Shown piece by piece: positions 15,049 through 63,700 of a stretch of 64,000 bases of DNA. The DNA lies in contig NC_045140.1 in the NCBI RefSeq assembly GCF_008831285.2, positions 22,070,370-22,134,369 on the forward strand. Reading direction: 5' to 3'. Positions within the stretch are counted from its first letter, which is position 1. Each line of letters begins with the position of its first letter. Both the position numbers and the translations under genes were made by a program. The notes beneath the pieces are model-generated. The model searched no databases. It saw only the letters and a list, made by a program, of their open reading frames with translations, and was not told where the DNA came from. Source of the stretch: Nymphaea colorata. Its lineage: Eukaryota > Streptophyta > Magnoliopsida > Nymphaeales > Nymphaeaceae.

Positions 15049-15109
<61 letters not shown>
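15049..15109. repeat. (TA)n microsatellite, about 61 bp
   Basis: An uninterrupted TA dinucleotide run in intergenic DNA. Confidence 0.97.
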
Positions 15110-35535: not shown

Positions 35536-37697
35536 ATGCGGAATCCCGGCGTGCTTTTGCTCTGGACGGCCGTCGCCGCACTTACCCTGTGCTGTCTCCC
35601 CGATGGCGCAGCTCCGGCGCCGGAGAAGCATAAGAACGCCTACGCTACGATGATGTATATGGGAACGCCCAGGGACTATGAGTTCTACATCGGCCTGCGT
35701 GTCCTGCTTCGCTCCCTCGCCCACCTGAAGGTCGACGCCGACCTCGTAGTTCTGGCTTCCAAGGACGTTCCGGCCAAGTGGGTCGCTGCCATGTATGTTC
35801 TTCCCCTGCCGCCACCTTCCCCTTTTGCTCTTTGCTTCCATTTTCGTCCTTTTTCGTTTTGGTGGTGATGAAGTTAATTTTGGTGCCGCGTAATTGAAAC
35901 GCAGGCAGAATGAAGACGGGGCGAAGGTCGTGAGGGTGGACAACGTGAAGAACCCCTACGTCCCCGAACATTCCGATTACAGGTTCAAACACACCCTCAA
36001 CAAGCTCTATGCTTGGAAATTGGTGGAATATGAGAGGGTGGTGATGCTCGACACTGACAACCTGTTCCTGCACAACACGGATGAATTGTTCCAGTGTGGT
36101 CAATTCTGTGCCGTCTTCATAAATCCCTGCATTTTTCACACAGGGCTTTTTGTTCTGCAGGTTGGTGCCTTTTCCTTTTGAATTTATGTTCTTGCCGCTG
36201 TAGTTCTTCTTGTTTCTAGGATGTTCTGGTACGGTGGGTGTCGACTGATGGTATTTAATATTAAGGGCAGTTCTATTATTGGGTAACAGTTATTTTGGGG
36301 GATTCTGAGATTTGGTATTTGGTGGCAGCCATCAGAGGAGGTGTTCAACAGGATGATGCAGCAGCTGATAGATGGGAGGCCGAATCCGGACGGTGCTGAT
36401 CAGGGGTTCTTGGTTGGCTGGTTTGATGATCTTCTCGGGCGCCCCATGTTCAATCCCCCCGCAAATGGCACAAGACTCGATGGTTACTTCAGACTGCCCC
36501 TTGGTTACCAGATGGATGCTTCTTATTTCTGTAAGTTCTCAGTCGTTTCCCGGATTCAACCGTTCCATTTCTCCTTGCCTTCTCCATCGCTTTTGTTTTG
36601 TCTCCTTTTAACAAACGAGAAAGGGGTTTAACCAAAATTACCTCGTTCTCAATAATCGGGAAATGCAGAATCTGTTCTTCTTTTTAGCCCTCCCAAGTTG
36701 CGAAAGCTAAAGAGCGAGGGAAGGCTTCCGTTGGTTGCCAGATGTTCAGTTACAATAATTTGCATCATATTTGTGTGAAACTTTATGTAGACAACAGACG
36801 TGATTCCATGGATGACATCCACTTGCAAAAACATAACTTTCATATAATATCAATCTGTCGTTTCATTATATGGCTGGCAGAGGGAATAAAGGTGCAACTT
36901 CTGGTATATTCCCCTGTAAATTTTACTACCACTAAGCCCATTTGTTTCTAATTGCAATGTCTGCGTAAATGTTAGCTTTAACGCTCGTAACTTATGAGAT
37001 CTCTTTAATGGCAGATTTAAAGCTAAGATGGAACGTACCCTGCGGCCCTAACAGCGTTATCACATTCCCTAGTGCGCCCTTGTTTAAGCCATGGTACTGG
37101 TGGTCCTGGCCTGTCCTCCCTCTCGGCTTAGCTTGGCACGAGCAGCGTCGCAACTTGTTGGGCTATGCGGATGACGTCCCTTACTGCGCTGCCCACACTG
37201 CCGTCTTCCTCCTCCTCCTGGCCGCGCTCCGCCTCTGTTTGTCTCGCATCTGCAACTTCCGCGCCACCGACAGGACTAATGCGACGGCAGCCACGACTTC
37301 ACTCTATCCAACTTTCATGAAGTGTGCCCTTCTTCTGCTGATCGTGGGTAGCTACAGTATGCCGTTCTATTTGATACACCGGACAGTGCACCCTGTCGTG
37401 GGCTGGACTCTGTATCTGGCAGGCTCATCTTCACTCATGTTGGTGGTGGCCAATGCTTTCTCCCTGCCCTTGCTCTCTGCACTCACGCCCTCTTTGGGGA
37501 TTGCCGGGGCCTTGTTCGTGATGGCGTACCCTGCATATCACGACGGCGTTGTCAGAGCTCTCTCTATATGGGCCTACTCATTCGTGTGCGCGCCATTTTT
37601 GTGGAGCTCCATCTCTAGATTGTTGAATCAGGTTGAGGCCTTGGTTCCAAATAAAAACGGAGAATTGCCATTACCGCAATTCATGAAGGTCTATTGA
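35536..37697 (+). CDS. IPUT1: Inositol phosphorylceramide glucuronosyltransferase (GT8, PGSIP6-like)
   Basis: Golgi enzyme that transfers glucuronic acid from UDP-GlcA to inositol phosphorylceramide, the first step of GIPC sphingolipid head-group synthesis. Four exons: 35536-35792, 35905-36160, 36329-36530 and 37015-37697, for 465 residues with matching phases. Residues 6-27 are a hydrophobic signal or anchor. The GT8 domain starts at NAYATMMYMGTPRDYEFYIG. The DxD metal/nucleotide-sugar motif is DTD at 135-137 (VVMLDTDNLFL), followed by FINPCIFHTGLFVLQ, NPDGADQGFL and LRWNVPCGPNSVITFP. The C-terminal half after KPWYWWSWPVLPLGL has several membrane segments, which separates IPUT1/PGSIP6 from the single-pass GUX xylan enzymes. 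The start is the first ATG in the conserved frame. A TATA-like box lies at 35216. Family assignment is firm; substrate is inferred from Arabidopsis. Confidence 0.93.
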
Positions 37698-38873
37698 AAA
37701 TTGATGATCTTAGCAACCATGTATTTAGAATGTCGATGAAAGATCTGAGCGTTGTTCTTCTCCCAATTCCAAACGGGCATTGAAGGACAGAGGAGACGGT
37801 TGTTTGGATAGTTGGAGAACGATGGAGTCGAGTGGCACAATGTATATTTATATTGTTTTTTTTTTGGTTGATTTCGTTTGTTTTCCATTTGAAGACAAAG
37901 GCATGTAGCGGGAGGCCGTTTGTCGCTGCTCAATTTTTTCTGAATCTGGCATGCTTCATCTTGCCAACTGGCTGCGAAACGCTGATCCATTCTTGATTGA
38001 TCACACATTGATAAGATCGACAGTTTATATAGATTATTCAGTTACGAAGGACAAAAGGAGCCGCTTTTTTGAGGCAGCCATCGTTTTCTTTCTGTTTTCT
38101 GTCTTGAACGGACTATTTCTGATCGAATGATTGCAAGAATGGCAGCGAGGGCCGGAAATGTGGACTACCAGGGGCGGTCTTTTAAGAACAACCGCTGCGG
38201 TCAACTCCCCCGCTATCTTTGGATGACTTGCCTACCCAATCCGAACGACATTAATGCTTGATATCGATGGGAAAAGTTCTAGCTTCAAAGTTATGAAGAT
38301 CGATCAACCCACCCGAATAAGATTTAAATCATGTTTAAGATAAAATTTTTGCTAGATATCTGGTGAGTTTGGCTCACATATACGCAATATGTATGCAAGA
38401 TCTTCAAAGTTCTAATGCACCTCCCTTGCTTTGTTCAAGACATGTCGTCGGTTCAAACCTCCTTTGCGTCACTTTGATTTCTAGCTGAGTTTTTTTACAC
38501 TCAGCACCGCTTGATTACCCGAGCCTTATGCTTTTAGCTTTAGCTCAGTTAAGCCAAGCTGGAGCTGTCTTAGTCTCGGCCAAAGGTGAGCTCGAAGTTC
38601 CAGTTGGGCCTTTTAAGGGTTGAGCCAAGCTCAAGCAGAGTTGGTAGGATCGTGAAGGCCACTGGCAAGAATTGTCTAACGATTTGTGTAAAGTGATGTG
38701 TTTACGTGCGTTGGCTATGTAGGGGTTTAACTGAATGCCCACTTCCAGATAGAGATGTCAATGTATCTGATTGTATCTGATTTGGATTGGATTTCGGCTG
38801 CTTTAAAATCAAATTGGTTGCATCAGTCATTTAATATTTTTTAAAACAATATGAGAAATTTCGCATTTTAGTA

Positions 38874-38908
<35 letters not shown>

Positions 38909-40812
38909 TTTTTATTTTTTAGAACTAGTTTTAAAATAACTGACCAACCAATGAATCAGTGGGTTGGCCAACTGAATTCCAAAAACAATTTTGTAGAATT
39001 GACTTTGAAAGCATAATGAGGACACTAAACTATGTCAAATCCATACTTTGCTCGAACAATCAATCTAAATAAGACGCTCCCATCTAAGATCCAGATTCAT
39101 CAAACGTTCACACACTAAAGGTGACAAAAAATATGGCAGCCGGTCTGTATTAAGAAAAAAGACATCAATGCTATAAGCGCAGTCATTATCTTTGTTTAGA
39201 ACACAGAGAAGGACTATTTTGGAAGCTGGACTATATAAAAAAGAGCCATATGTGGTAGTTTTTCCACAAAATCCAACTGTGCAAAAATAATTTCCTTTGA
39301 AGATTTTGAGAGTCCACGTTTAGTTCAAAAAACCTTACATTTGAAAAGAGCACAACATTTATGATGTTTATAGATCGTATACATTTATCAATTTGACCTT
39401 GAATATACTTAGTAGCATCATCTAAAGGATCTAGACCCAGTAAATGATTAAATGCGAATTCAGTACTCAGTTTCGTCACCCAACTTGAATTCAAATACTA
39501 TATCCGACTACATCCAACAAAAACTTGACCTCACTACATGTAAATGTGGACCTTTTGTTTAAACTCAGCTCTAAAAGCAAGAGCTGGGTTCACATTTAAA
39601 TCCAGGTCTATATAGACTTGGATCAAGTCAAATTCGGTAGAGATTGAACCTGAGCCCACTGCAACGTCTTTTTTCATCGGTATTAATTGGTTTGTTTTTT
39701 GGGCATGAAGCCCACATTTACACAATTAATTTAAGGAAAAAAACTGGCTGTATGATGCAGTTAAGGGTAAAATTGTTTTCTCACCTTGTAAAAAACCAAG
39801 CTTACCTTTTAAGTCTTTAACCTTTATCTGAATAGTGGCGTGGCTGCAGATATCAATATCTTTGGGGTCTTTTAGCAATAGGAACAATAATATACATTGT
39901 TCCATGTAGCTTTTCCAAAATAAGCATGATACAGTTAATCCGTCTCTTGGAGCATGATTCGGATGCTTTAGGATATGCTGTCAACGACGAGACATTAACA
40001 TGTCCCAATTCTTTTGTCTGCACTTGAGAGGCAATAACAAATAACAATCGATCAATTATTGACCTACTAAAAATTAATTTGATTTACATGCTTTGATCTG
40101 AACTTCCGATTTGGGTCCTTTTAAATCAAGTCTCAGCACTGTCAGTCTTTGACTTCAACTTCTTGGAATTGTTATCTTCTTAAAGCCTGATGGTTTGGTG
40201 AGGAAAGAGACAGAACCTCCACGATTTTTGCCCCAATGAAAGAAGAAAGAGCTGCAGGAAAACGTCAAAGCTACACCTCAGCATAGTTTGGTGAGGTCCT
40301 TTATTTCAACATCTCATTGCTAAAAGTTGGGAAGTTATCTTCAACTCTGGGGTTTTTTTTTACCTCTAGGCGTGGCCCGGCTGATTAAGCAGATGAGCTA
40401 AGGCAGGACGGAGCTTTACAAACTCAAGATTTCAAGTCTTTCATTACGTGATTGTAAAGATTTGCTGCAGATATGTCAGGCCGGTGAATTGCAGGGAAAC
40501 GTCGGACTTGGGGGTAGCTCCGCCACCAACCGCAATGGGTAGGTAAGAACTCTTCAAAACCAAGATATCTTGTATTTGGAGTACACTTATCCCTTCAAAC
40601 TCTCCCCTTGCAACTATCTGTCATTCCTACCCTTCAAACTCTCCTAAGTATTGGTATTCCTACCAAGATTAGCCAATCACTCACCAATACAAAGAAAAAT
40701 AGGCTGAGTCGCACATGTGCGGGCTTAAACAACAGGCGTGCTCTATCTCCAACACAGTCCACTCTTCTCTCAGCAATTGGAGGGCAGTTTGCTCATCTAA
40801 CTAAGAAGCAAA
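37698..40812. other. Intergenic region between IPUT1 and the first BAHD gene
   Basis: Contains the IPUT1 3' UTR, a degraded repeat of gagctt/gagctc wording (about 38500-38640), a MITE-like fragment (38752-38830), a (TA)n run at 38877-38904, and from about 38795 the start of the segmentally duplicated block A. The section 39151-39538 is present only in copy A. No gene is supported. Confidence 0.55.
39789..40288 (+). repeat. 500-bp block identical to 45935-46434
   Basis: Reading both copies base by base gives no substitution or gap across exactly 500 positions (constant offset 6146). The block is bounded by a g/t difference on the left and a t/a difference on the right. It lies about 525 bases upstream of the BAHD copy A start codon. 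Confidence 0.9.
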
Positions 40813-43240
40813 ATGCCGGACGCGTCCATCCGAGTGGTTTCCAGCACCACCATCCATCTTTCGAACAAGTTGGAAAGATCAGGATGGGAACTAACGGCCT
40901 GGGAAGTGGCCATGCTCTCTGCTCAGTACATACAGAAGGGGCTCCTCTTCCCTAAGCCCCCTATGCCGTTCGATGCCGTCATCCAACGCCTCCAAACCTC
41001 TCTCTCCCACTGCCTCCTCCATTTCCCCTTCCTGTCTGGTCGCTTCGCCACCGATCCTGAGACTACCACCTTTGTCGATTGCAATGACGCCGGAGTTTTG
41101 TTCGTCGTCGTCAAGGCTGACGGGCTGCACGTCTCCGATTTGGTGAATGCTGTTGATGTGCCCGCAATAGTCAGGTCCTTCTTCCTCATGGATGGCGCCA
41201 TCAACTTTGATGGGTACTCCCTCCCACTTGTAGCGGCTCAGGTAACGTTCTAGAGACAAGCTAACCTCATTGATCCATCGTCGTGGCTTTTTCTTTTCCT
41301 TTCAAAGACTGGACCACTAATGCCCATGAATCCCCAGAGATCGGTAAGTTTGCCCTGGCAGCCATGCCCTCCCAAGGATAAGGTCCCCCGAACATAGTAA
41401 TTTTGAGGCTTGATTCCAGTTTACTCGTCCAGCGAACATGGCCTGTTTATGCTACCAATTTCAATCTGGTTTGTTTTTCTTTTGTCTAAGGTTTTATTTG
41501 CGGATGGAGAAGGTACAACCAGTGGCTCTGACGAGAAGAAGATCATTCTTTTATGAGGGAAAGTTATTCATTTTCCTTACAAATTTGAGGGGGGAGGAGG
41601 GTTTGGAGTTCGTGGGGTTACGTTCTAAAACGTTTGTGAATTTAACCTTTTTGATACTGTTATTGACATGACAGTGGATCGATATGTTGCCAAATCCTTA
41701 AGGTTTTCACCTATTACAAAGGGAAGGCTCTGCTCAGTTGGCTGCGTCCAAATATCAATCTGCCCTCTTGCCATCTGGTGGCTAATTATTCGCAGAGGGT
41801 TTCCAGATTCAGAGGGCCCTCACTTCAAATTTTTGGACTATTCAAGAGTTCACAGTAAGATAACAAGTTAAACCATCTCAAGAACTGTTTCTCTGCTGTT
41901 CAAAAAAAAGAAAAAAAAAAAGAAAAAAGAATCTCTGAAGTGTAAACCGTTGTGACTTTGTGACAATGGACGCTCAGTGTTTTAAGCTTGATCAACATCT
42001 CCCATTAATGGTGTCATCTGCAAAGAATCCTTGTTGCCTAGAGCTTAGCTGATAAGCTGGAACTCAGATTAAATTCTCCACTCGATCCAGTTGAACTCGA
42101 GCTTCAGCAGCCGAAGTTCTGCTTGAGCTCTGCTTGTGTTAGCCCCTGAGTACTAAAACCTAATACACCCTTCCTCTCCGGCTACAATTAGAAAACGAAT
42201 ATGCTAAGTTGAATCCTATGTTTGCAGCATAACAGGTTTTGTCCAAATGAGCTGTTCTTTTAAAAAATAGTTATTTAGCGTCGGCGGCATTATAGGCTTA
42301 AAGGATTGAGGACTGGTCCGTATGTTGATGCTCAAACTCTGTTCTCATCTCATCAATTCAGATAACCGAGTTGGAGGACGGTGTCTTCGTAGGCTGCTCC
42401 TTCAACCACGCCATGGGCGATGGTGAGTCTTTCTGGCACTTCTTCAACTCCTGGTCGGAACTCTGCGCGGGCCGCCCAACCATATCACGAGCGCCGTTGA
42501 CGGAGCGACCCCAGATCCACAAGGAGCTGGGTCCGGTCCGCTACTTCCCGTCCGAAGACCACATGGAGCGGTTCAAAACGCCAGTGCTTCGGGAGAGAAT
42601 CTTCCACTTCAGTGCGCAAGCCGTAGCCCGAATCAAGGCCAAGGCCAACGAACAATCGAAGTTGGAGAAGGGCGAGATCTCGTCGCTGCAGGCGCTGAGT
42701 GCACTCATGTGGCGGAGCATAACGCGGGCGCGGAACCTCCCGTCCGACCAGACGACTGGTTGCAGGCTGGCGGTCGGGTACCGAAAGAGGATGGACCCGC
42801 CTTTACCCCGGGAGTACTTCGGGAACTGCATCGGAGCCATCCTGACGGAGGCCAAGGCCGGTGAGCTGCTGGGGCAGGACCTGGGTTGGGCAGCGCAGGC
42901 CCTGCACGAGACCGTGTCCAGGCTGACGGGGGACACGGCCCGAGAGCATATGGAGCGCTTGGTCAAGAAACTACAGGTCTATCACCTGAGCTGGTTTGAT
43001 CCAAACAGCATTCTGGTGGGGAGCTCCCCACGATTTGAGATGTATGGGAGTGACTTCGGGTGGGGGAAGGGGCTGGCGGTGCTCAGCGGTAGCGCCCACA
43101 AGTTTGACGGCAAAATTTCAGCTTTCCCCGGAAAAGATGCGGGTGGCAATGTCGATCTGGAAGTCTGTCTCTTCCCTCATTTCATGGCTGCCCTGGAGTC
43201 GGATGAAGAGTTCTTAGATGCGCTCCTTCCTTCTCACTAA
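40813..43240 (+). CDS. BAHD (HXXXD-type) acyltransferase, copy A
   Basis: Cytosolic acyl-CoA-dependent acyltransferase of the BAHD family, resembling the At3g50280/EPS1-type uncharacterised acetyltransferases (LTAWEVAMLSAQYIQKGLLF). Acceptor and acyl donor are unknown. Two exons, 40813-41241 and 42362-43240, with a 1120-bp intron in phase 0, encode 435 residues, the usual size. The catalytic HXXXD is HAMGD at 159-163 with H159 as general base. The structural DFGWG motif is intact at 374-378, and the product ends in a typical SDEEFLDALLPSH tail. An AATAAA lies at 43320-43325, 80 bases after the stop. The exons are clearly richer in G+C than their surroundings. The gene is in the left copy of a tandem segmental duplication and is about 95 percent identical to copy B in exon 1. 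Confidence 0.93.
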
Positions 43241-46200
43241 CAACTGGTTCGACTCCACCATCCCCGTCATTCGGATTGACGTTAGTCCTGTAATGAATTT
43301 CTCTGCTCAGAACTTTTTAAATAAAATTTCCAAACCATTCCCTGAAATTTGAGCAACTCAAACAACTTGCATTATAGGACCAAGTGGGTTATCCTCTTCG
43401 CTGGGTTATTATCTGCCAACTATTGCGTCGTTTTGGTTATTGTATGCCACGGCGTGCTTGACGCTGCCACAATCAAACAAAGATCATCTTGACAAAAGTA
43501 CCTTTCTTTTAAGGGCGATTAATTTCTTACATGGGGGCCATGGAATAATAAAAAGCCGTACTATTTGTTATAATTATTTACAATTGAATTTTATAATAAG
43601 AGTTGTTTTGACCTGATCTGGTAGAGGGGATCAACGTCGTTGATTTTGAACCCGATATGATTTTAGGGATGAGTCGATCTTGCCTTCAATGGGCAGATCA
43701 TGTAGGTCACATTACATCCGCAGTTTGATCTTAAGAACTAGCCTCAATTTTTAGAATTTTATTTTTCACATGGACCAAGTTTTTGTTGGCTACTCAAATA
43801 CATCATCAGGCTAAGTTTTAGGGAAACATTCTGTTTTGGGCCTGTTCTTCGCCCAATTGTGAAAAGATCTTTCTTTGTGAATTTCTTCATGTGGGCTGCG
43901 CTTTTAATGAAAATGATCAAATTAAGACTTGAAGTGAACCTCTGCTAATTAGAAAAGGCGGAAAAAATTTTAAGCAAGGCTGATTTAGACGTTATTTTAT
44001 CAAATGATTGACGCATGATACCGGTATCCGAATGACATTTGAACAAAAGATGAAGCTCCTTTTTTTTTTTTTTAGTTAAAGAACTGGAGATTAATCTGGA
44101 ACACGATGAGAAAGCAAAGGAGCAAATGAGTACGTTGACATGAAGAAGATGATGAGAGATTTGGGATAAAGAGTAGCAGTAGTGCGGGCTGCGCGCAGCT
44201 ATTCAAATGGCTCGAGCTGTTCGCATTTCTGACGGAAGGTCAAAAGTCTGTCGATTAGCCAGTCGATCGTTCATTCTAATTGCTTAAATCAAATTTAAAT
44301 GATATTTAAGATGAGTGCCAACAACTTCAGATCCAAATGATATTTAAATCTAATTTCCCAAATTCGCAGAAAATAATACAGATCAATCGGCACACTGTCG
44401 GATAGATTCCTTTCAGTCGTGTTTGATTCAAATTCGTGGTGATCTGAGATTTTAGAAATCTATGAATTTAAAATCAGCCTTAAATCCGTTGTTTTTGACA
44501 TGTAGAATGAATTTTGTTAGTGAAGTCCTTAATTAGTTTAAACGAATATGATCCCACCACGACCATGATGATGAACACGTTGTGGGCATGTTAACCACCC
44601 TCATAACGCACCACTAGAGCTGTTCAACAAAAAAAGCCATCTGGGAATCGACTCGAACTCCCTCAATTAATCGAGCTCAAGCTTCAATCAAAACTTGAGT
44701 TTGTAACAATTCAAGTTCAAGCTACATGGATTCGGCTCAATTAAGCTCAAGTGGGCTTTCCCTTTCATTCTCTCTCTTTCTCTTTCTTCAACTTGCATGT
44801 TAAGTGTTTGAGCTTTGCTTGAATAAGTCCATCTCAATCTTACAATATATGAGTCAAACACAGCTTGAGCTCGACTTGGCTTTTGCATAACACTACACAC
44901 AATGTTGCTTCCTCATGGCATCATTTGGCAATAAGGGCACGGAGTGGGTATCTCACTGATTCTTCTTAAAAAATGAAGCCAATTCATAAAAGAATAGTTC
45001 GAGTGATTCATTCTCTTCCTTTTGATTCCTGAATCCGTCCTACCTGAACCAGCCAAGATCTAATCTGCAATCGCACTTTAAAAGGAGGACAATTTTTTTT
45101 ACGCCAAACTTGTCCCCCTAATCGAAAACCATAAAGTATGGGTGAAATTTTTACCTATAAAAAACCTTTCTACTTTATCCACTTCACCTTAGAATGAATA
45201 AAATCTTTTATTAGCAGCATGCAAGGCTAGTTTGTAAACTCTGCGCCTTGAAATCCAAAGGTCTCAAGTCACATTTCTCTTCCCTCTAACTTGACATTCA
45301 TGGATTTGAGTAGTACCGTTATCAGGATCCGGTTGAATCGGCTGCTTCAAATGGAATTGGTTGCATCTATCATTTATTTTTTTTTAAAAAACAATATGAG
45401 AAATTTCGCATTTTAGTTATTTATATACATATGTTTTTTTTAAAAAAATTTTTAGAACTAGTTTTAAAATAACTGACCAACCACTGAATCAGTGGGTTGG
45501 CCAACTGAATTCCAAAAACAATTTTGTAGAATTGACTTTGAAAGCATAATGAGGACACTAAACTATGTCAAATCCATACTTTGCTCGAACCATCAATCTA
45601 AGGCGGGCCTGATGTTAAAAAAGACCTTCCCATCTAAGATCCAGATTCATCAAACGTTCACACATGAAAGATAAGACAAATATGGCAGCCAGTTTGTATA
45701 AATGTGGACCTTTTGTTTAAACTCAGCTCTAAAAGCAAGTCCTGGGTTCAAACTTAAATCCAAGTTTATATAGAATTCGATCAAGTCAAATTCGGTAGAG
45801 GGTGAACCTGACCCCATCGCAACCTTTTGTTACATCCGTATCAATTGGTATGTTACAACATTTACACAATTAATTTTTAAGGAAAAAAACTGGCTGTATG
45901 ATGCAGTTAAGGGTAAAATTGTTTTCTCACCTTTTAAAAAACCAAGCTTACCTTTTAAGTCTTTAACCTTTATCTGAATAGTGGCGTGGCTGCAGATATC
46001 AATATCTTTGGGGTCTTTTAGCAATAGGAACAATAATATACATTGTTCCATGTAGCTTTTCCAAAATAAGCATGATACAGTTAATCCGTCTCTTGGAGCA
46101 TGATTCGGATGCTTTAGGATATGCTGTCAACGACGAGACATTAACATGTCCCAATTCTTTTGTCTGCACTTGAGAGGCAATAACAAATAACAATCGATCA

Positions 46201-46933
46201 ATTATTGACCTACTAAAAATTAATTTGATTTACATGCTTTGATCTGAACTTCCGATTTGGGTCCTTTTAAATCAAGTCTCAGCACTGTCAGTCTTTGACT
46301 TCAACTTCTTGGAATTGTTATCTTCTTAAAGCCTGATGGTTTGGTGAGGAAAGAGACAGAACCTCCACGATTTTTGCCCCAATGAAAGAAGAAAGAGCTG
46401 CAGGAAAACGTCAAAGCTACACCTCAGCATAGTTAGGTGAGGTCCTTTATTTCAACATCTCATTGCGAAAAGTTGGGAAAGAACGTGGTGTGGAAAAAAA
46501 AATTGGCTTTTAGAGTTCTATGATGTTTTGCCTCTAGGCTGATTAAGCAGATGAGCTAAGCCAGGACGGAGCTTTACAAACTCAAGATTTCAAGTCTTCC
46601 ATTACGTGATTGTCAAGATTGATTTGCTGAAGATATGTCAGGCCGGCGCGTTGCACGGAAACTTCGGATTTGGGGGCAGCTCCGCCACCAACCGCAATGG
46701 GTAGGTAAGAACTCTTCAAAACCAAGATATCTTTGTATTTGGAGTACAAACAACTTATCCCTTGCAAGTATTTGTTATTCCTACCAACATTAGTCAATCA
46801 CTCACTAATATAAAGAAAAAAAGACTGAGTCCGACATGTGCGGGCTTAAATAACAGGCATACTCTATCTCCAACACAGTCCGCTCTTCTCTCAGCAACTG
46901 GAGGGCTGTTTGCTCGTCTAACAAAGAAGCAAA
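43241..46933. other. Interval between BAHD copies A and B
   Basis: Holds the 3' flank of copy A, including the A-only segment 43358-43785 and a degraded repeat of gagctc/gagctt wording (about 44610-44890). The 376-bp inter-copy spacer (44956-45331) follows, then the 5' flank of copy B. No gene is supported. Confidence 0.6.
43320..43325 (+). terminator. Possible poly(A) signal of BAHD copy A
   Basis: AATAAA, 80 bases after the stop codon. The aligned position in copy B (near 49520) reads AAACAA. Confidence 0.4.
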
Positions 46934-49900
46934 ATGCCTGAGGCGTCCATCCGAGTGGTTTCCAGCACCACCATCCATCTTTCGAACAAGTTGGAAAGAT
47001 CAGGATGGGAGCTAACCGCCTGGGATGTGGCCATGCTCTCTGCTCACTACATACAAAAGGGGCTCCTCTTCCCTAAGCCCCCTATGCCGTTTGATGCCGT
47101 CAGCCAACGCCTCCAAACCTCTCTCTCCCACTGCCTCCTCCATTTCCCCTTCCTGTCCGGTCGCTTCGCCACCGATCCGGAGACCACCACCTTCGTCGAT
47201 TGCAACGACGCCGGAGCTTTGTTCGTCGTCGCCAAGGCTGACGAACTGCACGTCTCCGATTTGGTGAATGCTGTTGATGTGCCCGCCATAGTCAGGTCCT
47301 TCTTCCTCATGGATGGCGCCATCAACTTTGATGGGTACTCGCTCCCACTTGTAGCTGTTCAGGTAACGTTCTAGAGAAGCTAACCTCAGTGATCCTTCGT
47401 CCTGGCTTTTTCCTTTTAATGAAAATGAAGGACCTTCAAAGACTGAACCACTAGTGGCCCATGAATCCCCAAAGAAAGGAAAGTTTGCCTTGGCCGCCAT
47501 GCCCTCACAAGGATGGATAGTGTCCCCCAACATAGTAATGTTGAGGCTTGATTCCAGTTTACTCTTCCAGCTATTCTCGAACTGGGCCTGTTTACACTGC
47601 CAATTTCAATCTGGTATGTTTTTCTTTTGTCTAATTTTTTATTTGTGGCTGGAGAAGGTACAACCAGTGGCTCTGACGAGAAGAAGATCATCCTTTTCTT
47701 TTCTGAGGGAAAGTTATTAATATTCCTTACAAATTTTAGGGAGGAAGAGGGTTTGGAGTTCGTGGGGTTACGTTCTAAAACGTTTGTGCTTGGAAATTTA
47801 ACCTTTTTGATACTGCTGTCCATATGACAGTGGATCGATTTGTAGTAAAATCCTTGAGGTTTTCACCTGTTACAAAGGGAAGGCTCTGCTCAGTTGGCTG
47901 CGTCCAAATCTCAATCTGCCCTCTTGCCATCTGGTGGCTAATTATTCGCTTGCATAGGCCAAGGGTTTCCAGATTCAGAGGGCCTTAACTTTAAATTTTC
48001 GGACAATTCAAGAGTTCACAGTAAGATAACAAGTTAAACCATCTCAAGAATTGTTTCTCTGCTGTTCAAAAAAAAAGAAAAAGAAAAATATCTGAAGTGT
48101 AAACCATTATGACTTTGTGACAATGGATTATGGACGCTCCATGTCTTAAGCTCGACCAACATCTCCCATTAATGGTGTCATCTGCAAAGAATCCTTGTTG
48201 CCTTGAGCTTAGCTGATGAGCTGGAACTCAGATTAAATCCTCCACTCGATCCAGTTGAACTCGAGCTTCAGCAGCCGAAGTTCTGCTTGAGCTTTGTTTG
48301 TGTAAGCCCCTGAATACTAAAACTTAATACACCCTTCCTCTCTGGCTACAATTAGAAAACGAATCTGCTAAGTTGAATCGTATGTTTGCAGCAGAACAAG
48401 TTTTGTCCAAATCAGCTCGGCATTATTATAGGTATAAAGAATTGAGGATGAAAGCAGACTAGGCCATATGTTGATGCTCAAACTCCTCTGTTTTCATCTC
48501 ATCAATTCAGGTAACCGAGTTGGAGGACGGTGTCTTCGTAGGCTGCTCCTTCAACCACGCGATGGGCGATGGCGAGTCCTTCTGGCACTTCTTCAACTCT
48601 TGGTCGGAACTCAGCGCGGGCCACCCATCCATTACACGACCGCCGTTGACGGAGCGACCCCAGATCCACAATGAGCTGGGTCCAGTCCGCTACCTCCCGT
48701 CCGAAGACCACATGGAGCGATTCAAAACGCCAGTGCTTCGGGAGAGAATCTTCCACTTCAGTGCGCAAGCTGTAGCCCGGATCAAGGCCAAGGCCAACGA
48801 GCAATCGAAGTTGGGGAAAGGCGAGATCTCGTCGTTGCAAGCGCTGAGTGCACTCATGTGGCGGAGCATAACGCGGGCGCGGAACCTCCCGTCCGGCCAG
48901 ACGACTGGCTGCAGGCTGGCGGCTGGGTACCGAAAGAGGTTGGACCCGCCTTTACCCCGGGAGTACTTTGGAAACTGTATCCGAGCCATCCTGACGGAGG
49001 CCAAGGCAGGTGAGCTGCTGGGACAGGACCTGGGTTGGGCAGCGCAGGCGCTCCACGAGACCGTGTCCAGGCAGACGGGGGACACAGCCCGGGAGCATCT
49101 GGAGGGCTTGATCAAGAACCCACATGTCTATCACCTGAGCTGGTTTGATCCAAACAGCATTATGGTGGGGAGCTCCCCACGGTTCGAGATGTATGGGAGC
49201 GACTTCGGGTGGGGGAAGGGGCTGGCGGTGCTCAGTGGTAGCGCCCACAAGTTTGACGGCAAGATTTCAGCCTTCCCTGGAAAAGATGTGGGTGGCAATG
49301 TCGATCTGGAAGTCTGTCTCTTCCCTCATTACATGGCCGCCCTAGAGTCGGATGAAGAGTTCTTAGATGCGCTCCTTCCTTCACACTAACAACTGGTTCG
49401 ACTCCACGATCCCCGGCAATCGGATCGACGTTAAACTATTAATACATTGATTACCTACCATCAACTTAGATATCTGAACCGGGGAAAGTTTGTTTTGAAT
49501 TTCACTGCGCCGAACTTTTTAAACAAAATTTTGAAACCATTCCCTGAAATTTGAGCAACGAGCTTTCGCTGGCTACTCAAATACATCATCAGGCTAAGGT
49601 TTAGGGGAACATTCTGTTTTGGTTTTATTGTTCGCCCAATTGTGACAAGAACTATCTTTGTGAATTTCTTCTTGTGGGCTGCGCTTTTAGTGAAAATGAT
49701 CAAATTAGTACTTGAAGTGAACCTTTGCTAAATAGAAAAGACAGGCCAAAATTTAAGCAAGCCTGATTTAGACGTTATTTTCTCAAATGATTGGCGCATG
49801 ATACCGGTATCCGAATGACATTTGAACAAAAGAAGAAGCTCCTTCTTTTTTTAGTTAAAGAACTGGAGATTAATCTGGAACACGATGAGAAAGCAAAGGA

Positions 49901-50755
49901 GCAAATGAGTACGTTGATATGAAGAAGATAATGAGGGATTTGGGAAAATGAGTAGCAGTAGTGTGGGCTGCGGCAGCTATTCAAATGGTTCGAGCTGTTC
50001 GCATTTCTGACGGAAGGTCAAAAGTCTGTCGATTAACCAGTCGATCGTTCATTCTAATTGCTTAAATCAAATTTAAATGATATTTAAGATGAGTGCCAAC
50101 AACATCAGATTCAAATGATATTTAAATCTAACTTCCCAAATCCGCGGAAAATTAAGAAAATGTCAACACAGATCTATCGGCACACGGTCGTGTTTGTTCC
50201 AAATTCGTGGTGATCTGAGATTTTAGAAATCTATGAATTTAAAATCAGCCTTAAATCAGTTGTTTTTGAACGAAAATGATCCCACCATGACCATGCTGAT
50301 GCCCCACGATGTGGGCATGTTAAACACCCTCATAACGCACCACTAGAGTTGTTCAACAAAAAAAGCCAACTTGGGATCGGCTCAAACTCCCTCAATTAAT
50401 CGAGCTCAAGCTTCAATGAAGGCTTGAGTTTGAAACAAGCTACATGGATTCGGCTCAATTAAGCTCAAGTGGGCTTTAGATTTGAATGCTGTATCAAAGT
50501 CAGTACTTATGCAACTTAAGACTTGCTTTCCCTTTCATTCTCTCTCTTTCTCTTTCTCCAACTTGCATGTTATGTGTTTGAGCTTTGCTTAAATGAGTCC
50601 ATCTCAATCTACGCCACACAATCTATTGAGTTCCCTTGAGTTGAGCAATATACGAGTCAAGCTCACCTTGAGCTCGACTTGGCTTTTGCATAACGCTACA
50701 CACTATGTTGCTTCGTCATGGCATCGTTTGGCAATAAGGACACGGAGTGGGTGTC
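45332..50755 (+). repeat. Tandem segmental duplication, copy B (about 5.4 kb)
   Basis: Direct-orientation paralogue of 38795-44955. It lacks the two segments unique to copy A and has a short extra segment after the stop codon (about 49433-49500). The long TA run of copy A (38877) is reduced to a few bases here (about 45422). Confidence 0.9.
46934..49389 (+). CDS. BAHD (HXXXD-type) acyltransferase, copy B
   Basis: Tandem twin of the gene at 40813, with the same predicted activity (acyl transfer from acyl-CoA, substrates unknown, cytosolic). Exons 46934-47362 and 48511-49389, separated by a 1148-bp phase-0 intron, give 435 residues, the same exon lengths as copy A. HAMGD at 159-163 and DFGWG at 374-378 are intact, so it should be active. 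By my count exon 1 differs from copy A at about 20 of 429 bases. About half of these change residues (for example A34-A40 region E to D and Q to H; ADG to ADE). Both copies therefore look constrained but able to diverge in specificity. The first codon of exon 2 is GTA here and ATA in copy A. Confidence 0.93.
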
Positions 50756-51246
50756 GTATGGATTTTTTTTCAAAGAATGGAGCAGATAGTTCTAATGTTT
50801 CCAGAATCTTTTGAGGGCAGAGATATATGAAAAACTCAAAAAATTCACTCGTTGTTGTCCTTACTGCCAAACGCTTCCCCACATGTACAAAATAGACACC
50901 ATGAAAATAAAGCGTGATGAAGATAAGATGATAGGAAGAGTAGGGTTCAAAAAACAGAGAACGACAAAGGGGCTTAGGAATGCCAAGACATAAAGAGCAA
51001 GTACACCCTTTCGACACGTAATAAATTTAACAGAAACGACAACCACTTGCAACGCGTGGCCATAAGGGAAGGATCACGAGCGATGGAACTACACGTCCAG
51101 ATGAGGACAAGCGTATATCGAAGCTACTTAAAACAGCAAGGGATGATAAGGGAGAGCCAAAAAATGTCCAAAAACCGAACGACATGTACGCCTCACTCAG
51201 GATTCCACATTTTGTCAGCTCAGTACGAGCAGAGAAAGAGAAAGAG
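49390..51246. other. Interval between BAHD copy B and the third BAHD gene
   Basis: 3' flank of copy B to about 50755, including gagctt/gagctc-type degraded repeats (50370-50690), then about 490 bases of unrelated upstream DNA for the third gene. No gene is supported. Confidence 0.6.
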
Positions 51247-52715
51247 ATGCCGGCGCCCACCGTCCGCTTGATCTCCAGCACCATGGTCCACCTGCGGGAG
51301 AGCAGCAGCAGCCACGCTGAGGGGAGTCGACGAAGGTGGGAGTTGACGGCGTGGGATGTGGCAATGCTCTCCACTCCTTACATTCAAAAGGGCCTGCTGT
51401 TCCCCATGCCTCCCGGACCGCTGTATGCCGCCATTCAACACCTTAAGTCTTCCCTCTCCCGATGCCTGCTGCACTTTCCCTTCTTGGCTGGGCGCTTGGC
51501 CACCGACTTGGAGACCACCACCTTCGTGGACTGCAGCGACCAGGGCGTACAGTTTGATGTGGCCGCCGCCGACGGGGTCCACGTCTCGGACTTGGCGTCG
51601 GCTGGTGAGATTCCGGCCGTTGTCAACTCCTTCTTTCCACTGGCCGACGGAACGGTCATCGGCTTCGATGGTTATTCTTTGCCTCTCCTTGCCGTTCAGG
51701 TATTCATATCTATCTCCTTTCGAGCCCTCTGGCTTTTCCGTTCATGATTCATAGAGTTTCCTACTTTTGCAACACTGTTACACCCAGATGGAGTTCGAAG
51801 AGGCAAGGACCTAATTAATGGATTGGTGTGTACCATGCGATTCCATTCCAGGTGACCGAGTTGAGCGACGGCGTTTTCGTCGGCTGCTCCTTCAACCATG
51901 TGATGGGCGACGGCGAGTCATTTTGGCATTTCTTCAAGTCCTGGTCCGAGATCACTTCCGGAAGCGAAATCATATCCCGGGCGCCACTGACCGAGCGACC
52001 ACCCATCCACCACGAGTGCGGTCGGATCAGATTCCTCGTCTCCGAAGAACATATGGCTCGGTTCTCCTCGCCGCCCTTGAGAGTGCGTTTCTTCCGCTTC
52101 AGCCGCAACGCCATCGTTTGCCTTAAGGCTAAGGCCAACCGGCAACTCAGGCCGGAGGTGGGCGACATCTCATCACTCCAAGCGTTGACGGCGCTCATGT
52201 GGAGGTGCATAACCCGAGCGAGGAGGCTCCCAGTTGACCAGACGACCACTTGTAAGATGGCCATAGGGAATCGGACGAGGCTCGACCCACCCCTGCCGGC
52301 CGGCTACTTCGGTAATTGCATGGAGGCCATCGCCGTAAAGGCCGTGGTGGGCGAGCTCCTGGCGCAGGAGCTGGGCTGGGCGGCTCGAGCCCTGCACGAT
52401 CGCATCAAGGGCCACACGAACCTGTCGGCTCGGAAGTTTGTAGAAGAGTGGGTGAAGAGGCCGAGCGTGTACCACGGGCTCTTTGAAGGGAACGGTGTCA
52501 TGGTGGGGAGCTCGCCGAGGTACGAGATATACGGCATCGACTTCGGATGGGGAAGTGGTGTGACGGTGCTCAGCGGCGCTGCTAACAAGTATGACGGGAA
52601 GATGTCGGCGTATCGAGGGAAGGGCGGCATCGATTTGGAAGTCTGCTTGTTCCCACATTTCATGAGTGCCTTGGAGTCGGATGGGGAGCTCTTGGACATG
52701 CTTTCGATTGTGTAA
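51247..52715 (+). CDS. BAHD (HXXXD-type) acyltransferase, divergent third gene
   Basis: A BAHD enzyme of the same At3g50280-like group, clearly paralogous to the two upstream genes but much more divergent. Two exons, 51247-51699 and 51852-52715, with a short 152-bp phase-0 intron at the same position, encode 438 residues. The catalytic motif is HVMGD at 167-171 and DFGWG lies at 381-385; both are intact. The N-terminus reads MPAPTVRLISSTMVHL, then LTAWDVAMLSTPYIQKGLLF. I chose ATG 51247 because its sequence aligns with the starts of the other two; an in-frame ATG 63 bases upstream (51184) would add 21 residues of unmatched sequence. An AATAAA follows at 52748-52753. Substrate unknown. Confidence 0.93.
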
Positions 52716-55368: not shown

Positions 55369-58300
55369 TCAATTTTCGCGAACGATTTCATGATTTGGTG
55401 ACGAGCGCCCACGAGTAGAAGCATCTTGCTCGGTACTTGTGCTATCGTCATCGTGATGTGGTGCAGGTCCTGCTTCAGTACTCACTGGGCTCTGCCTGCA
55501 TGACCGATCATCGATAGCATTGTCGCTGATTTCCAGATCCTCATTATTCCTGATCATGTGCCTGAAAGTGAGGGAGTTGAGATCTTTCTCATCGAAATGC
55601 CTGATAATGTCCAACACTGTGAGCCACAGGCGCTTCTGCTCGGTGTCATGCTCGGGAGAAGAAGGGCCCTCGTCTTTCTTGTAATATTCCAACAGGACCG
55701 AGAGGACGTAGAAAAGGAGAGCTCCAGTTGAAGCGATCCCGGTTATAAGGAAGAGGCCCCAGAAGTTTGAGAGCGAAAGGCTGCCGGAGCTTGTATCTGA
55801 CGTCGAATCTACACCGTCGGTCGTTTGATTGCTGATCCATTTCTTTTCTATAGCTATCATTTCATCTCCCTCCGTCACGTTGAGAATGGCTCGAGACATA
55901 TCAGAGACCAACGGGGAACCTCGTGGAAATGCCTGAAAAGTTAAGTTAATTTCGTTTCCTCAGTGCTGTTATGTAGAAAGGGAGAGAGATCTAGGGAGAA
56001 GGAGAGAAAGTATACTTACAAATGCTAAGCCACCGGTTTTGTAGGTAGGGCCAACAGTAGTATACTCATCGCCATGCTGGCCGAGGAACATGCGGTTGTA
56101 AGGGATCTCATCGAAGATGGCAGCAACGCCGCCATGGCGGCTGCCCTTGGAGAAGGCTTCCAGAAAGTCCTCGGGCTTGGTGTATGGCCTGATCTTCGAC
56201 GCCGGAACGCCCAACCGCCTCAGCAACTGCCCCACGAAGGACGAGTTTCGGTAGCCGATGTAGTCGCCATTCCTGATCAGCGTCTGAATGTCGGTAACCG
56301 ATGGTTGCAGCTGCTGCACCGTCAGCATGGACGTCAAGCTGGCCGTGTAGCTGGTCGTCAGAATCAACACGACGAACACCCAGACTACGATCACGAGTCG
56401 AGACAGGTTGCCGGCGAGCCTTTGGTCTGAAGATCAGTCCAGACATCTAATTCCTCTCAATTTTCAAGTCAATACAAGATTCATGTCCATGAGCAATGGG
56501 TGGTGATCAGTTGGGTACTTACTGTGGGCGAAGACCATGGTGGAGAAGATGAAGTAGAAGACCAAGCCCACCTGTTCGGTGGGAGGGCCTTGGAACTCCG
56601 ACCCGCCCTTCCAGCGCTCCAGCGCCCACACCACGACGCCGGTGAAGAGGAAGGAGGCAAAGGTGGCGAGCCACAGCTGTAGGGTCATGGGCCGGAGGAA
56701 CACCCAGGCGTTCTTCTTGTGGGGCTTCACCGGCACTATCATGGACACCCCGGACTCGGTGTAGGGCAGAGTGAAGTCCACATATTTGGATCGGTTTGCG
56801 ATGATGGTAGTGTCGCCGACGACCGCGTCGTACCTCTGTACATACCAACCAACATCAACACCTTAATTAATTCGTTAATTATTGTAATGACCACAAGTAG
56901 CAGAGAGAGACCAAATTGATTTCGATTTATATATGATAATGCGGCTTAGTTTTTTGGGCGAGTAGAATAAAAAGGAGGAGCAACCGAGCAAGAGAAAAGA
57001 AAAGGGATGTGTTCCCCAACCCAAAATGTTTCTAAAAAATTATCGACAAAAAAAAAAAAACTGAAAATTTTGGAGAAAAACTTGAAGACGCCTCCATTAG
57101 AAATTTTGTCTCCACTTGGTGCAGGTCGATCTAAACGCCCATGCTTTTTAGGTCGTTGACGTCTGCGAATCTTGGACCCGCAACCCTCCAGCACAGGGGG
57201 ATGGACTTCGTCCAGTTTTGACCGTTGGCTTTCTGACGACGGTAAAGCCATCCAATTATTTATGAACTTCTTAACAAGGTCGTCTGACTTTTAGTGCAAC
57301 TTGCTAAAAAAAAAATTTGGTGTGCACATTCTTCTAAGGCAAAATTTTGTAAAAGCAGAGTCTACTTGCCTAAGTTTTGATTTCTTTCATTTGACCGACT
57401 AAGTTGTAAGGAAACATGTACACACTGGGATAAAAGAAGTCGGAACTTAAGCATGTGTGATTATATCAAACCAAATTAATTTCTCTAGAGAGCTTCAGGT
57501 TGCACTTGCGTGGAATGCCAAAACCAAGGCCCCAGATTACAATGCATTCAAGACCACTCGCTCTCATTCAATCGAAGCCTGAAAAAGACTTTAGCAACAC
57601 AAGAAAATGTCCCGCAGGCGTGCTTCTGTGAAGCAATTATTGTTCGTTATTTTATTCGTTTTGTTGATTATGTAGCCCCACCAACGAATCGCAACATTGG
57701 CTAGCCGTTGACTTGCTTTATTACACGCTAACGCCGGTCGGCTTCTGAGCGGTAGATTCTTTGATAGATTAAAGAAGAAGGGTGGATATAAAACCTTAGA
57801 AACGGATTATTGAGCCAAAGCTCAGAAGCTGTGAAAACAAAAATATGAGCATGAGTTTCATTATTATGCTTTATAAAAGTGTAGAAACTTACTGAAGAAT
57901 AATAGAACTACTGGCCAAAGCAAGTTGACTTGATAACGCCAACCCAGACAGTTATTCCAAATTTTAGTTGAAAATAGGGAAGTAAGAATTAAGGGGAAGG
58001 AAAAGTTACGCAAAAACTAAAAAATTGGCATAGGGGGTTGAACCCTAGCTAGCTATTGCTTTCGTAGTTACCACTTCATTCTTACTTTACCATCTAGCTC
58101 AGAATTCATGTTCGGTCAGAGAAGATGAAAGGAAAAAAGTTGGAAACTAAGTTTTCGGTACTAACCTGAAGGTAGACTTGGTAGACGAGATCATCGTAGC
58201 TGCCGGCCATTTTTCCTTGATCGTTCTCAAAGGGGAACAACTCGTAGGGAAGCGAGTAAGGGAGTTTGCTCACCACCGCCTTGAACACGTCTATCGAGTA

Positions 58301-60006
58301 CCCCGTCACGATCGTCGCGTTCGTCTGCGGATCCCTCCAAACACCGACGAAGTCCTTGTAACCATCTTTCACGGGCACCCCAATCCTCAACTTCTTCCCC
58401 TCCGTCGGAATCATCCAACCCCGGGGAACCTCCTCTGTTCCGCCGGGCCAGACCACCGGGTTAAGTACAATGGCAGGATCTGAATAGTTCGGGTTCCTGT
58501 TCCTGTCTTCCGAGCTCAGAGTCCGGGAAAGCCCGAATCCTGGACGCCAGAATCCGATCTCATGAAGATCTTCCATGCCCACCACGTTAATTATTTGGAT
58601 GATTCTGTTCCGCAGTTGACCATCTGCAAGCTGGAATTCGCCACTCAATCCTCTAAACCGTGTCTTCCTCACTGCTTCCAGGAGATTTCGACCCGCCGGT
58701 GAGACACGTTTCAACAGCTCGAACGAGTTCGCCGACTTCTTTGGTTTGAGGGCGTCGGAATTGTACTCACCGACGCCGTTAGCTTTCTCCACGGCCAGGG
58801 CCAGTGCCCAGGCCGTGTCGTAGGCCCAGATGCCAAACGCGTTGCGCTCCGGCTGCGTCCCCATCTCCGGATTTTCCGCGACCAATCTGCGCCTCCACCT
58901 CTCCGCGAAATCCCTCAAGGGCTTCGAGGAAGGAACGTATGTCTTCACTCCGATGACACCCTTCATGGAGGCAATCACAGAAGAATTCATGACTCCAATG
59001 AGGTTTCCCAATGAGTTCGTGATGATCCAGACGTAGTCTTTGCTCATCATACCTTTAGTTTCTGCGTTGAGAAACAGACGAGCACCAAGAGCGGGAGGCA
59101 AGTGCACCACAAAGACCCGAGTATGGTTCGAAGCAAGCCGGTCCAGCTCTCCATTAATGAAGCTATCGTTGGCCGATGGTGGCAGAAGGGTCCTGTAAGG
59201 TACTCCGACGCCAATCTGCTGGAGGGCATCGGTTAAGAAGGGGATCACCCCCATCCCGAAGTTGGAGTTTTCATAGATTGGCACCACTTTTTTCCATCCG
59301 TAGGCCTTGACAATATCAACTATGGCACCTACTTGAAAGGAGTCGCTCTCCGCAGTGGAAATGAAGAAAGAATTGCCACTTGATGACAGCGAAGGGCTTG
59401 TAGCCGAGAAGGAAACGATGGGCACATGAGTTCTATCACCCAGTTTGCTGATGAATTCTGCATCTCCGGACCTCTGCGGCCCGATAATAGCTTCCACTCC
59501 AACATTCTTCAACAACCCAATAGCTAACAAGAACACAAGAAGGAGGGTTAAAGAGCATTCTCAGATCTATCCAACCAGACTAAAGAAAATTAAGTAACCG
59601 GTTTGGAATTGCTCAAGAATTTGGGTTTCAATTCAAGTTGATGGCCTATGTGAGGCAGAAAGCTAGAAATTGCTTAAGACTGCCCTCAGTGGTTTGGAAT
59701 TTGAAGAAAGGAATAATTTTGAGTCCCAAGTAGCGTACCAGTGTTGGTGGCTCCAATAACATCTTTTTCTGAACTACCACTGTGAAGAATCAACCGTTTG
59801 TTGTGGCTGCGAGTGCCATAGAAGTCCTCAAGAGCGACTGAGATAAAGGATTTGCCGATCTTCCCAACCAGAGACTCGAAATCAAGGATCAGTCCGACGT
59901 TTACCGGAACTGCTGATGTGTTTGCAGCAAGGGAGGGGCCGCAGAAGACGACCAGGAAGAAGAGAAGAGGAGGTTGGAGAACGGAAGGGGAATTTCGAGG
60001 GGCCAT
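55369..60006 (-). CDS. Glutamate receptor-like channel, clade II-like (GLR-1)
   Basis: Ligand-gated cation channel of the plant GLR family, predicted at the plasma membrane. Five exons on the minus strand: 60006-59739, 59523-58166, 56835-56523, 56426-56020 and 55932-55369, for 969 residues. Order: signal peptide (1-28, LLFFLVVFC core), ANF-type amino-terminal domain (about 35-440), S1 lobe (GKKLRIGVPVKDGY to YDDLVYQVY), M1 (LWLATFASFLFTGVVVWALE), pore loop (GLVFYFIFSTMVFAHN), M3 with signature SYTASLTSMLTVQQLQP, S2 lobe, M4 (WGLFLITGIASTGALLFYVL) and a cytosolic tail with FDEKDLNSLTFRH typical of clade II. Both cysteines that normally form the S2 disulphide are replaced (G and T). Upstream are four W-boxes. 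The next GLR gene follows head to tail 766 bases away. Confidence 0.94.
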
Positions 60007-60772: not shown

Positions 60773-63700
60773 CTAAGCGGAGGCAATTACAATATCATGA
60801 GGAGGTTCTTCACCACTGTTTGGAATGCTCAATGGATGGATTCTCATGTCTCTCCTGCTGCCTCCTTCTCGCGTGTTTCTGAAAGTGTGTGAAGACATGT
60901 CCTTCTGATCAAAGTGCTTCAACATGGTGTTCATTCTGACTGCTTTTACTCTCTGCAGCCAAGTCGTCGGCCCTGTGAAAGTGTCCTCAACCTTAACAGT
61001 CTTGAGATAGTTGTAAAAGAAACGAAGGAAGAAAACAAGAAGCGCCATCAATGAAGTTGTCCCTGTTAAGAGGAAGAGTCCCCACAGACGGGTGACGGAC
61101 AACCTGTCAGATTCCACTTTTCTTCCCGCATTTACACAAGTCTGGTTCCCAAAAAGTGCCTTGTTGATCTCCATCATCTTATCTCCCTCCGTAACGTTCA
61201 GTATTGCCCTCGAAACATCAGAAACTAAGGGCGAACCTTTCGGGAATACCTGCAACAATTGCCAGTGTTTGAAACCATGTGAGAGAGAGAGAGAGATAAA
61301 GACAGAGACAAACAGACAGACAGACGGACTTACGAAGCCAAATCCTTCTGCTCTGTAAACAGGTCCAACCATGGCGAAGCCATCACAGTATTTCGCGAGG
61401 AAGAGCTTAATGAGTGGGATTTCATCGAAAATGGCTCCAACGCCACCATTCTTGCTGCCATTGGTGAGTGCATCTGCGTATTCTTCTGGGGAATTGTACG
61501 CCTTGAGTTTATTTTTGGGAACATTCAGTTGATCGATCAACATGTCGCGGACGAACGATCCATTCTGGTAACCAATGCTCTCCCCATTTCTTAGGAGAGT
61601 TTGAATGTCGGTGACGGTGGGCTGGAGCTGCTGCACGGTGAGCATGGAGGTCAGGCTGGCCGTGTAGCTCTGCGTCAGTATCAGCACCACAAACACCCAC
61701 ACGATCACTACAACGCGGGACAAGTTGCTTTGGAGCTTCTCCCCTTCAGTTTCGAAAGAGAAAAATGCACGAAATCAGCTTTGTCAAAGATATGGTCAGG
61801 ATTTATAACCCAAACTTTGAAAACAAAATTGACGCCGCGAAATGTTTATTTGAGGAATCAACGGTAAAGGGACTTGGTGTTTGCGGGTGCCCTGGAGTAA
61901 AGTTTTGTCTCATGTAGATGAACATAATAAAGCAATAATCTAACACCACTAGAAGAGACAAAATACCCAAATAAAAGAGTGTGTGAGATTGAGAGAGAGA
62001 GAGAGAATTACTGTGAGCAAAGACCATGGTGGAGAAGGCAAAGTAATAGACCAAGCCAAACTGCTTCAAGGGAGGTCCTCTGAACTCATCGTTGATTCGA
62101 TGCTCTAAAATCCATACCACCAAACCAGTCCAGACAAAGAAAACTCCACTGACCACCCAAAGCTGGGCCGTCATTGGCTTCAAGAATATGAAAGGGTTCG
62201 ACTTCCTTCCGGCTTTCATCCGCACAATCATGGACACACCAGTCTCCGTGTAGGGCAACGTGAAATCCACGTATTTGGTTCTGCTTGCCCTGATAGTCGT
62301 ATCACCCACCACTGCGTCGAAATTCTGTATGCCAACATCTTAAATTAATTAATCCATGCAACCTCTCATGCATAGTCATCTCATGGATAGTCGTACATGA
62401 TATAATACATAATTCAAGCATGAATACTCCAGGTAATATATAACCCTTACGATAGAGAATATAAATAGCAGCTTTTGAAACCATGTAACAGTAACCAACA
62501 TAAAAGATCTTCTCTGGGCATATTTATAGGATGAGTGTTATATGTAACTTTTAAAAAATTGCGACAGTGATTTTTACATTCTTGCAGAATGTTATTTACA
62601 CATTAAGGAGACATTTAATGAGGTGAAAAGGACAAGAAATGAAAGACGGTTTTATGCGTACGGTGGTTAAAATTTTTCAAGAAAATAAACCAGAGTTTTT
62701 TAATTTGTGGAACAAAGAAGTTGACATGACTGTACAGATCTAATAAAAGGAAAGAAAAATCTCAGGAATTCCTTTTCAGTGTTCGATGCATGAATGTGCC
62801 GTGGAGATAACTTATCAAACAAAGTATGCCTCGAAATTTTTTCTTGTTCATCGTTTCCAGTAATCTATAACGTTTTGGATCGCCACGAAAAATCCAAGTT
62901 TATATGGTAAACTTTTGTAGGAAAAAAGAGTAGAAATATGATGAAACGACGGGGTACAGCCAGCAAGAACAGAAGGTAAATGGCCTCACCCCAAGAAAAA
63001 CTTGGTAGACAAGTTCATTGTAAGTTCCATTGGGCTTCCCTTCGGCGTCTTCAAAAGGGACGAACTTATGGGGCAGATAGTACGGCATGTTTTGCAACAC
63101 CATATTGAAAACGTCTATGCAATAACCCTCCACGGCCGTGCTGCCGTCCGTCGGGTTCCTCTGGATCTTCAGAAATTCGGTGAACGCAAGCTTTACCGGC
63201 ACTCCTATTATCAGTTTCTTCCCGCTGGTTGGAATTTCCCACCCTCTCGGCGTCGCCGTCGTACCACCAGGCCAGTTCACCGTCTTAAGACTGGAATCCT
63301 TCTGTCCGCCGTCCACCTTTCCGGTTCTTGAGAGTCCGGTCGCCTTCTTCCAGAACCCCACTCTTTTTTCTCCACGTCCGATCAGATTCAGTATCTCAAA
63401 GTCTTCGGTGGTTAACTGCCCGTTTCGGAGATCGAAATCACCACTCAAACCTTGCAATGGATTGCGTCGCATCTCGTGCAATATGCTTGGCCCGGTTGAG
63501 GAGACTCCCAAATTCCCGAACACTCCCGTCGAGTTGGAGCGGCCGTTTCCACGTTGGTGGTGCTTGATGTTCCCGGCTTCTGTTCTTTCTACTGCTGAAG
63601 CCAGGGCCCAGACGGTGTCATATGCCCACAAACAGAAGATGTCGGGATCCCATGGCGGTTCTTCAACGTGGGTGAGGTTGGACTTGGACCAGATTCTCTG

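Follow-up and report, generated by a model that had tools for sequence, protein, structure and literature searches.

Two neighboring acyltransferase genes in Nymphaea colorata raise the question of how a stretch of non-coding DNA in front of each can be cleaner than the exons that follow it. In the window (the whole stretch of 64,000 nucleotides that was analyzed), a first-pass annotation had claimed that positions 39789–40288 and 45935–46434, upstream of two BAHD-type genes, match at all 500 bases, and had favored recent gene conversion as the cause. The identity is exact: 0 mismatches in 500 bases were counted, and the maximal exact match stops at the same coordinates, with a mismatch at the very next base on each side. 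The best explanation for the block, and a probable one, is in our view that the two genes recently underwent a short gene conversion without crossover. The coordinates of the block, of its limits and of the genes are listed in Table 1.

Table 1. Coordinates of the identical block, the tract limits and the BAHD-type genes in the window.
Feature	Position	Strand	Description	Basis
Identical block, copy A	39789–40288	.	500 bases; end lies 524 bases upstream of the gene A start codon	Maximal exact match
Identical block, copy B	45935–46434	.	500 bases; end lies 499 bases upstream of the gene B start codon	Maximal exact match
Widest plausible conversion tract	A 39714–40333; B 45858–46479	.	4 differences in 621 sites; score 41.3	Two-rate likelihood scan
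A-only segment, left tract limit	39697–39710	.	14 bases missing from B	Alignment
Right tract limit	A 40334–40378 vs. B 46480–46536	.	Apparently unrelated sequences	Alignment and event list
BAHD-type acyltransferase gene A	40813–43240 (exon 1 40813–41241; exon 2 42362–43240)	+	435 residues	Reading frames, exon join
BAHD-type acyltransferase gene B	46934–49389 (exon 1 46934–47362; exon 2 48511–49389)	+	435 residues	Reading frames, exon join
Third, more diverged BAHD gene	51184–52715 (frames 51184–51747 and 51828–52715)	+	Start and splice sites approximate	Reading frames

Two Tandem Units With BAHD-Type Genes

The two copies of the block occupy corresponding places in two tandem units, at approximately 38794–44979 (unit A) and 45338–50783 (unit B), with a spacing of approximately 6.1 kb between the twins. 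Within the second exons of genes A and B we identified frames that match PF02458 (E 1.7e-60 and 9.3e-61, respectively), and the translations of both genes contain HAMGD (in NHAMGDG) and DFGWG, corresponding to the HXXXD and DFGWG motifs of BAHD acyltransferases. On the basis of the domain and both motifs, genes A and B belong to this family. For gene A, the closest solved structure is that of AmAT7-3 (8h8i, E 1.2e-81). The second frame of the third BAHD gene also matches PF02458 (E 5.3e-52).

Genes A and B have diverged at the level of both protein (31 of 435 residues) and coding sequence without the stop codon (79 of 1305 bases), with a coding dS of 0.174, a dN of 0.032 and a dN/dS of 0.18. 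The units are neighboring, fairly old duplicates of a plant acyltransferase gene.

Divergence of the Units Around the Block

The two units were compared in a global alignment, in which a run of gaps was treated as one event. Two unalignable stretches of unit A, 39151–39540 (approximately 390 bases that, read by eye, are missing from unit B between 45698 and 45699) and 43285–43777, were dropped before counting. Over the 5147 alignable sites 419 difference events were found, and the divergence outside the block is 9.0%. The block is therefore far more alike than its flanks, beyond what chance would give. It is also cleaner than the exons of the twins, which are under purifying selection as judged from their dN/dS: exon 1 has 22 differences in 429 bases, close to the 20 or so noted previously, and the intron has 93 in 1081 aligned bases (8.6%), with additional indels, in line with the earlier remark that introns are more diverged than exon 1.

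Differences were also counted in overlapping windows of 500 sites. The 3648 windows clear of the block, equivalent to perhaps seven to nine independent ones by our estimate, hold 27 to 70 differences each; the highest count arises where the unshared stretch to the right of the block is included, as the alignment is forced there and scores mismatches. In this sliding-window comparison, which the first-pass annotation had proposed, 500 bp with zero differences is exceptional. When the differences between A and B were shuffled 5000 times, the longest identical run had a median of 75 and a maximum of 161, vs. the 500 observed. The assertion that neutral duplication cannot leave such a block is thus borne out for a uniform rate.

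Farther upstream, another run of 106 bases is identical in the two units (38952–39057 and 45485–45590).

Extent of the Tract

The limits of the tract were derived from a two-rate likelihood scan, compared with 60 shuffles. The best-scoring tract covers 39730–40288 and contains 1 difference in 559 sites, with a gain of 45.4 log-likelihood units vs. a maximum of 13.2 in the shuffles. A version restricted to the 500 identical bases scores 44.8 and the widest plausible version 41.3, and the left and right ends of the tract are therefore uncertain by up to approximately 75 and 45 bases, respectively. The edges had been described as sharp, which holds only roughly, as near-identity continues up to 39714 and 40333.

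Going outward on the left, a substitution at 39788 is followed by 58 identical bases, a 2-base indel and 16 identical bases, after which the sequence is unshared. On the right, substitutions at 40289 and 40321 are followed by unshared sequence from position 40334. The tract limits thus adjoin unshared sequence on both sides, which argues for conversion; heterologies of this kind could plausibly delimit heteroduplex DNA.

The two-rate scan did not single out a further conversion tract in the unit. The next best candidate, the run at 38952–39057, gains 9.1 units, which is within the range of the shuffles, and was rejected as another tract.

Sequence Properties of the Block

A coding role for the block was rejected, as its six frames contain 5 to 16 stops and the longest open stretch is 76 codons. 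At the gathering score, 0 Rfam matches were obtained for the whole window, and the predicted RNA folds of the two strands of the block are not unusual when compared with shuffles (z-scores of −0.40 and −0.02). Based on these results, a structured non-coding RNA was rejected as well. Sequence related to the block was not found elsewhere within the window, including the region upstream of the third BAHD gene, and a plasmid collection, which says little for a plant, contained no match to it. The GC content of the block (0.372) lies between that of the left flank (0.346) and those of the right flanks (0.448 and 0.422), and therefore gives no sign of GC-biased repair, although without an outgroup this says little.

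Gene Conversion and Alternative Explanations

Conversion between the twins would explain the identity of the block, its position, its limits and the undisturbed spacing of the genes. The two units align collinearly, with flanks and gene order intact around the block, as is characteristic of a non-crossover event. We propose that a DNA break occurred upstream of one BAHD twin and was repaired with the other twin as a template, through synthesis-dependent strand annealing or a similar short non-crossover event. Such a repair, in either direction, would have overwritten approximately 500 to 620 bases and left both genes and their spacing unchanged, and the tract may have been limited by the sequence on each side that the copies do not share. 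The event was probably recent, because 0 differences in 500 bases place a 95% upper bound of 0.6% on the divergence of the block, which is less than 7% of that of the pair. Gene conversion is a well-known and ordinary process, and the reading that had been favored from the start is retained as the best explanation, with 0 of 500 differences vs. 9.0% elsewhere and the gain in the two-rate scan.

The main rival to conversion is an artifact of assembly, gap-filling or polishing, by which the true sequence of one copy would have been replaced by that of its twin. We regard this as unlikely. A length of exactly 500 is a round number that would fit an artifact, and some polishing tools use windows of approximately this size. 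However, a replaced window of 500 should have normal flanks, whereas 4 differences fall in the adjoining 121 sites, vs. approximately 11 expected (Poisson P 0.016, from a test picked after seeing the data, and thus mild evidence against an artifact), and the effect is limited to one block in the unit. Chance variation in neutral divergence is hardly credible: nothing was found in its favor, its probability at a uniform rate is of the order of 1e-16, and the shuffled runs fall far short of the block.

The copies could also be kept identical by strong purifying selection on a common regulatory element or non-coding RNA, an alternative raised in the first-pass annotation (there as an enhancer or non-coding RNA), and each copy lies approximately 0.5 kb ahead of the start codon of its gene, a plausible place for regulatory DNA. 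Constraint of this kind nevertheless finds no support in the Rfam search, in the ordinary fold or at the third BAHD copy, where nothing similar is present, and the exons of the same genes differ in spite of purifying selection. In addition, 500 contiguous unchanged bases greatly exceed the median of 30 bp that an excerpt of one study gives for a set of Arabidopsis conserved non-coding sequences, which compares other kinds of sequence pairs (PMC8233505). We therefore consider constraint very improbable. It is improbable too that the block is a common control region that is repeatedly homogenized by conversion, with its identity favored by selection; if so, two enzymes with diverging proteins would stay under common regulation.

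Comparison With Known Exchange Between Plant Paralogs

Exchange between plant paralogs is documented in excerpts of two studies (PMC6771003; PMC6343889). At RPP8 of Arabidopsis, the excerpted text describes exchange as extensive among some copies and low between tandem twins, and the default tract length in the accompanying simulations is 100 bp (PMC6771003); both points count against conversion at the present locus. The two cases are alike in that short non-crossover exchange is inferred between duplicated plant genes. Unlike the polymorphism-based results for RPP8, those reported here come from one sequence and concern a single clean tract shared by tandem twins. For the tandem AT3 genes of Capsicum, which are BAHD acyltransferases, the excerpt reports recombination inferred from spliced coding exons as well as a recombinant gene (PMC6343889). 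Here, too, the inferred exchange involves tandem BAHD acyltransferase genes, but the tract lies upstream and the coding sequence is untouched.

The block is most likely a further instance of known exchange between paralogs, which stands out only in that it lies upstream and is very clean. As such it would illustrate cleanly how a conversion tract between tandem metabolic genes can be confined to upstream DNA, and it calls for caution, as a duplication can be badly misdated when its age is taken from a single non-coding stretch. The block would be of greater importance only if the homogenized segment were regulatory.

Surroundings of the Units

On the other strand of the window, a domain search identified a receptor ligand-binding domain (58106–59560) and a ligand-gated channel domain (60773–61774), presumably as in plant glutamate-receptor-like genes. 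Based on the intron-containing BAHD genes and the genes with these receptor and channel domains, the window resembles plant nuclear DNA. An open frame of 242 codons at 36969–37697, without a Pfam match, reads like a membrane protein, and an alternating A/T run of approximately 60 bases at 15049–15109 is an ordinary simple repeat.
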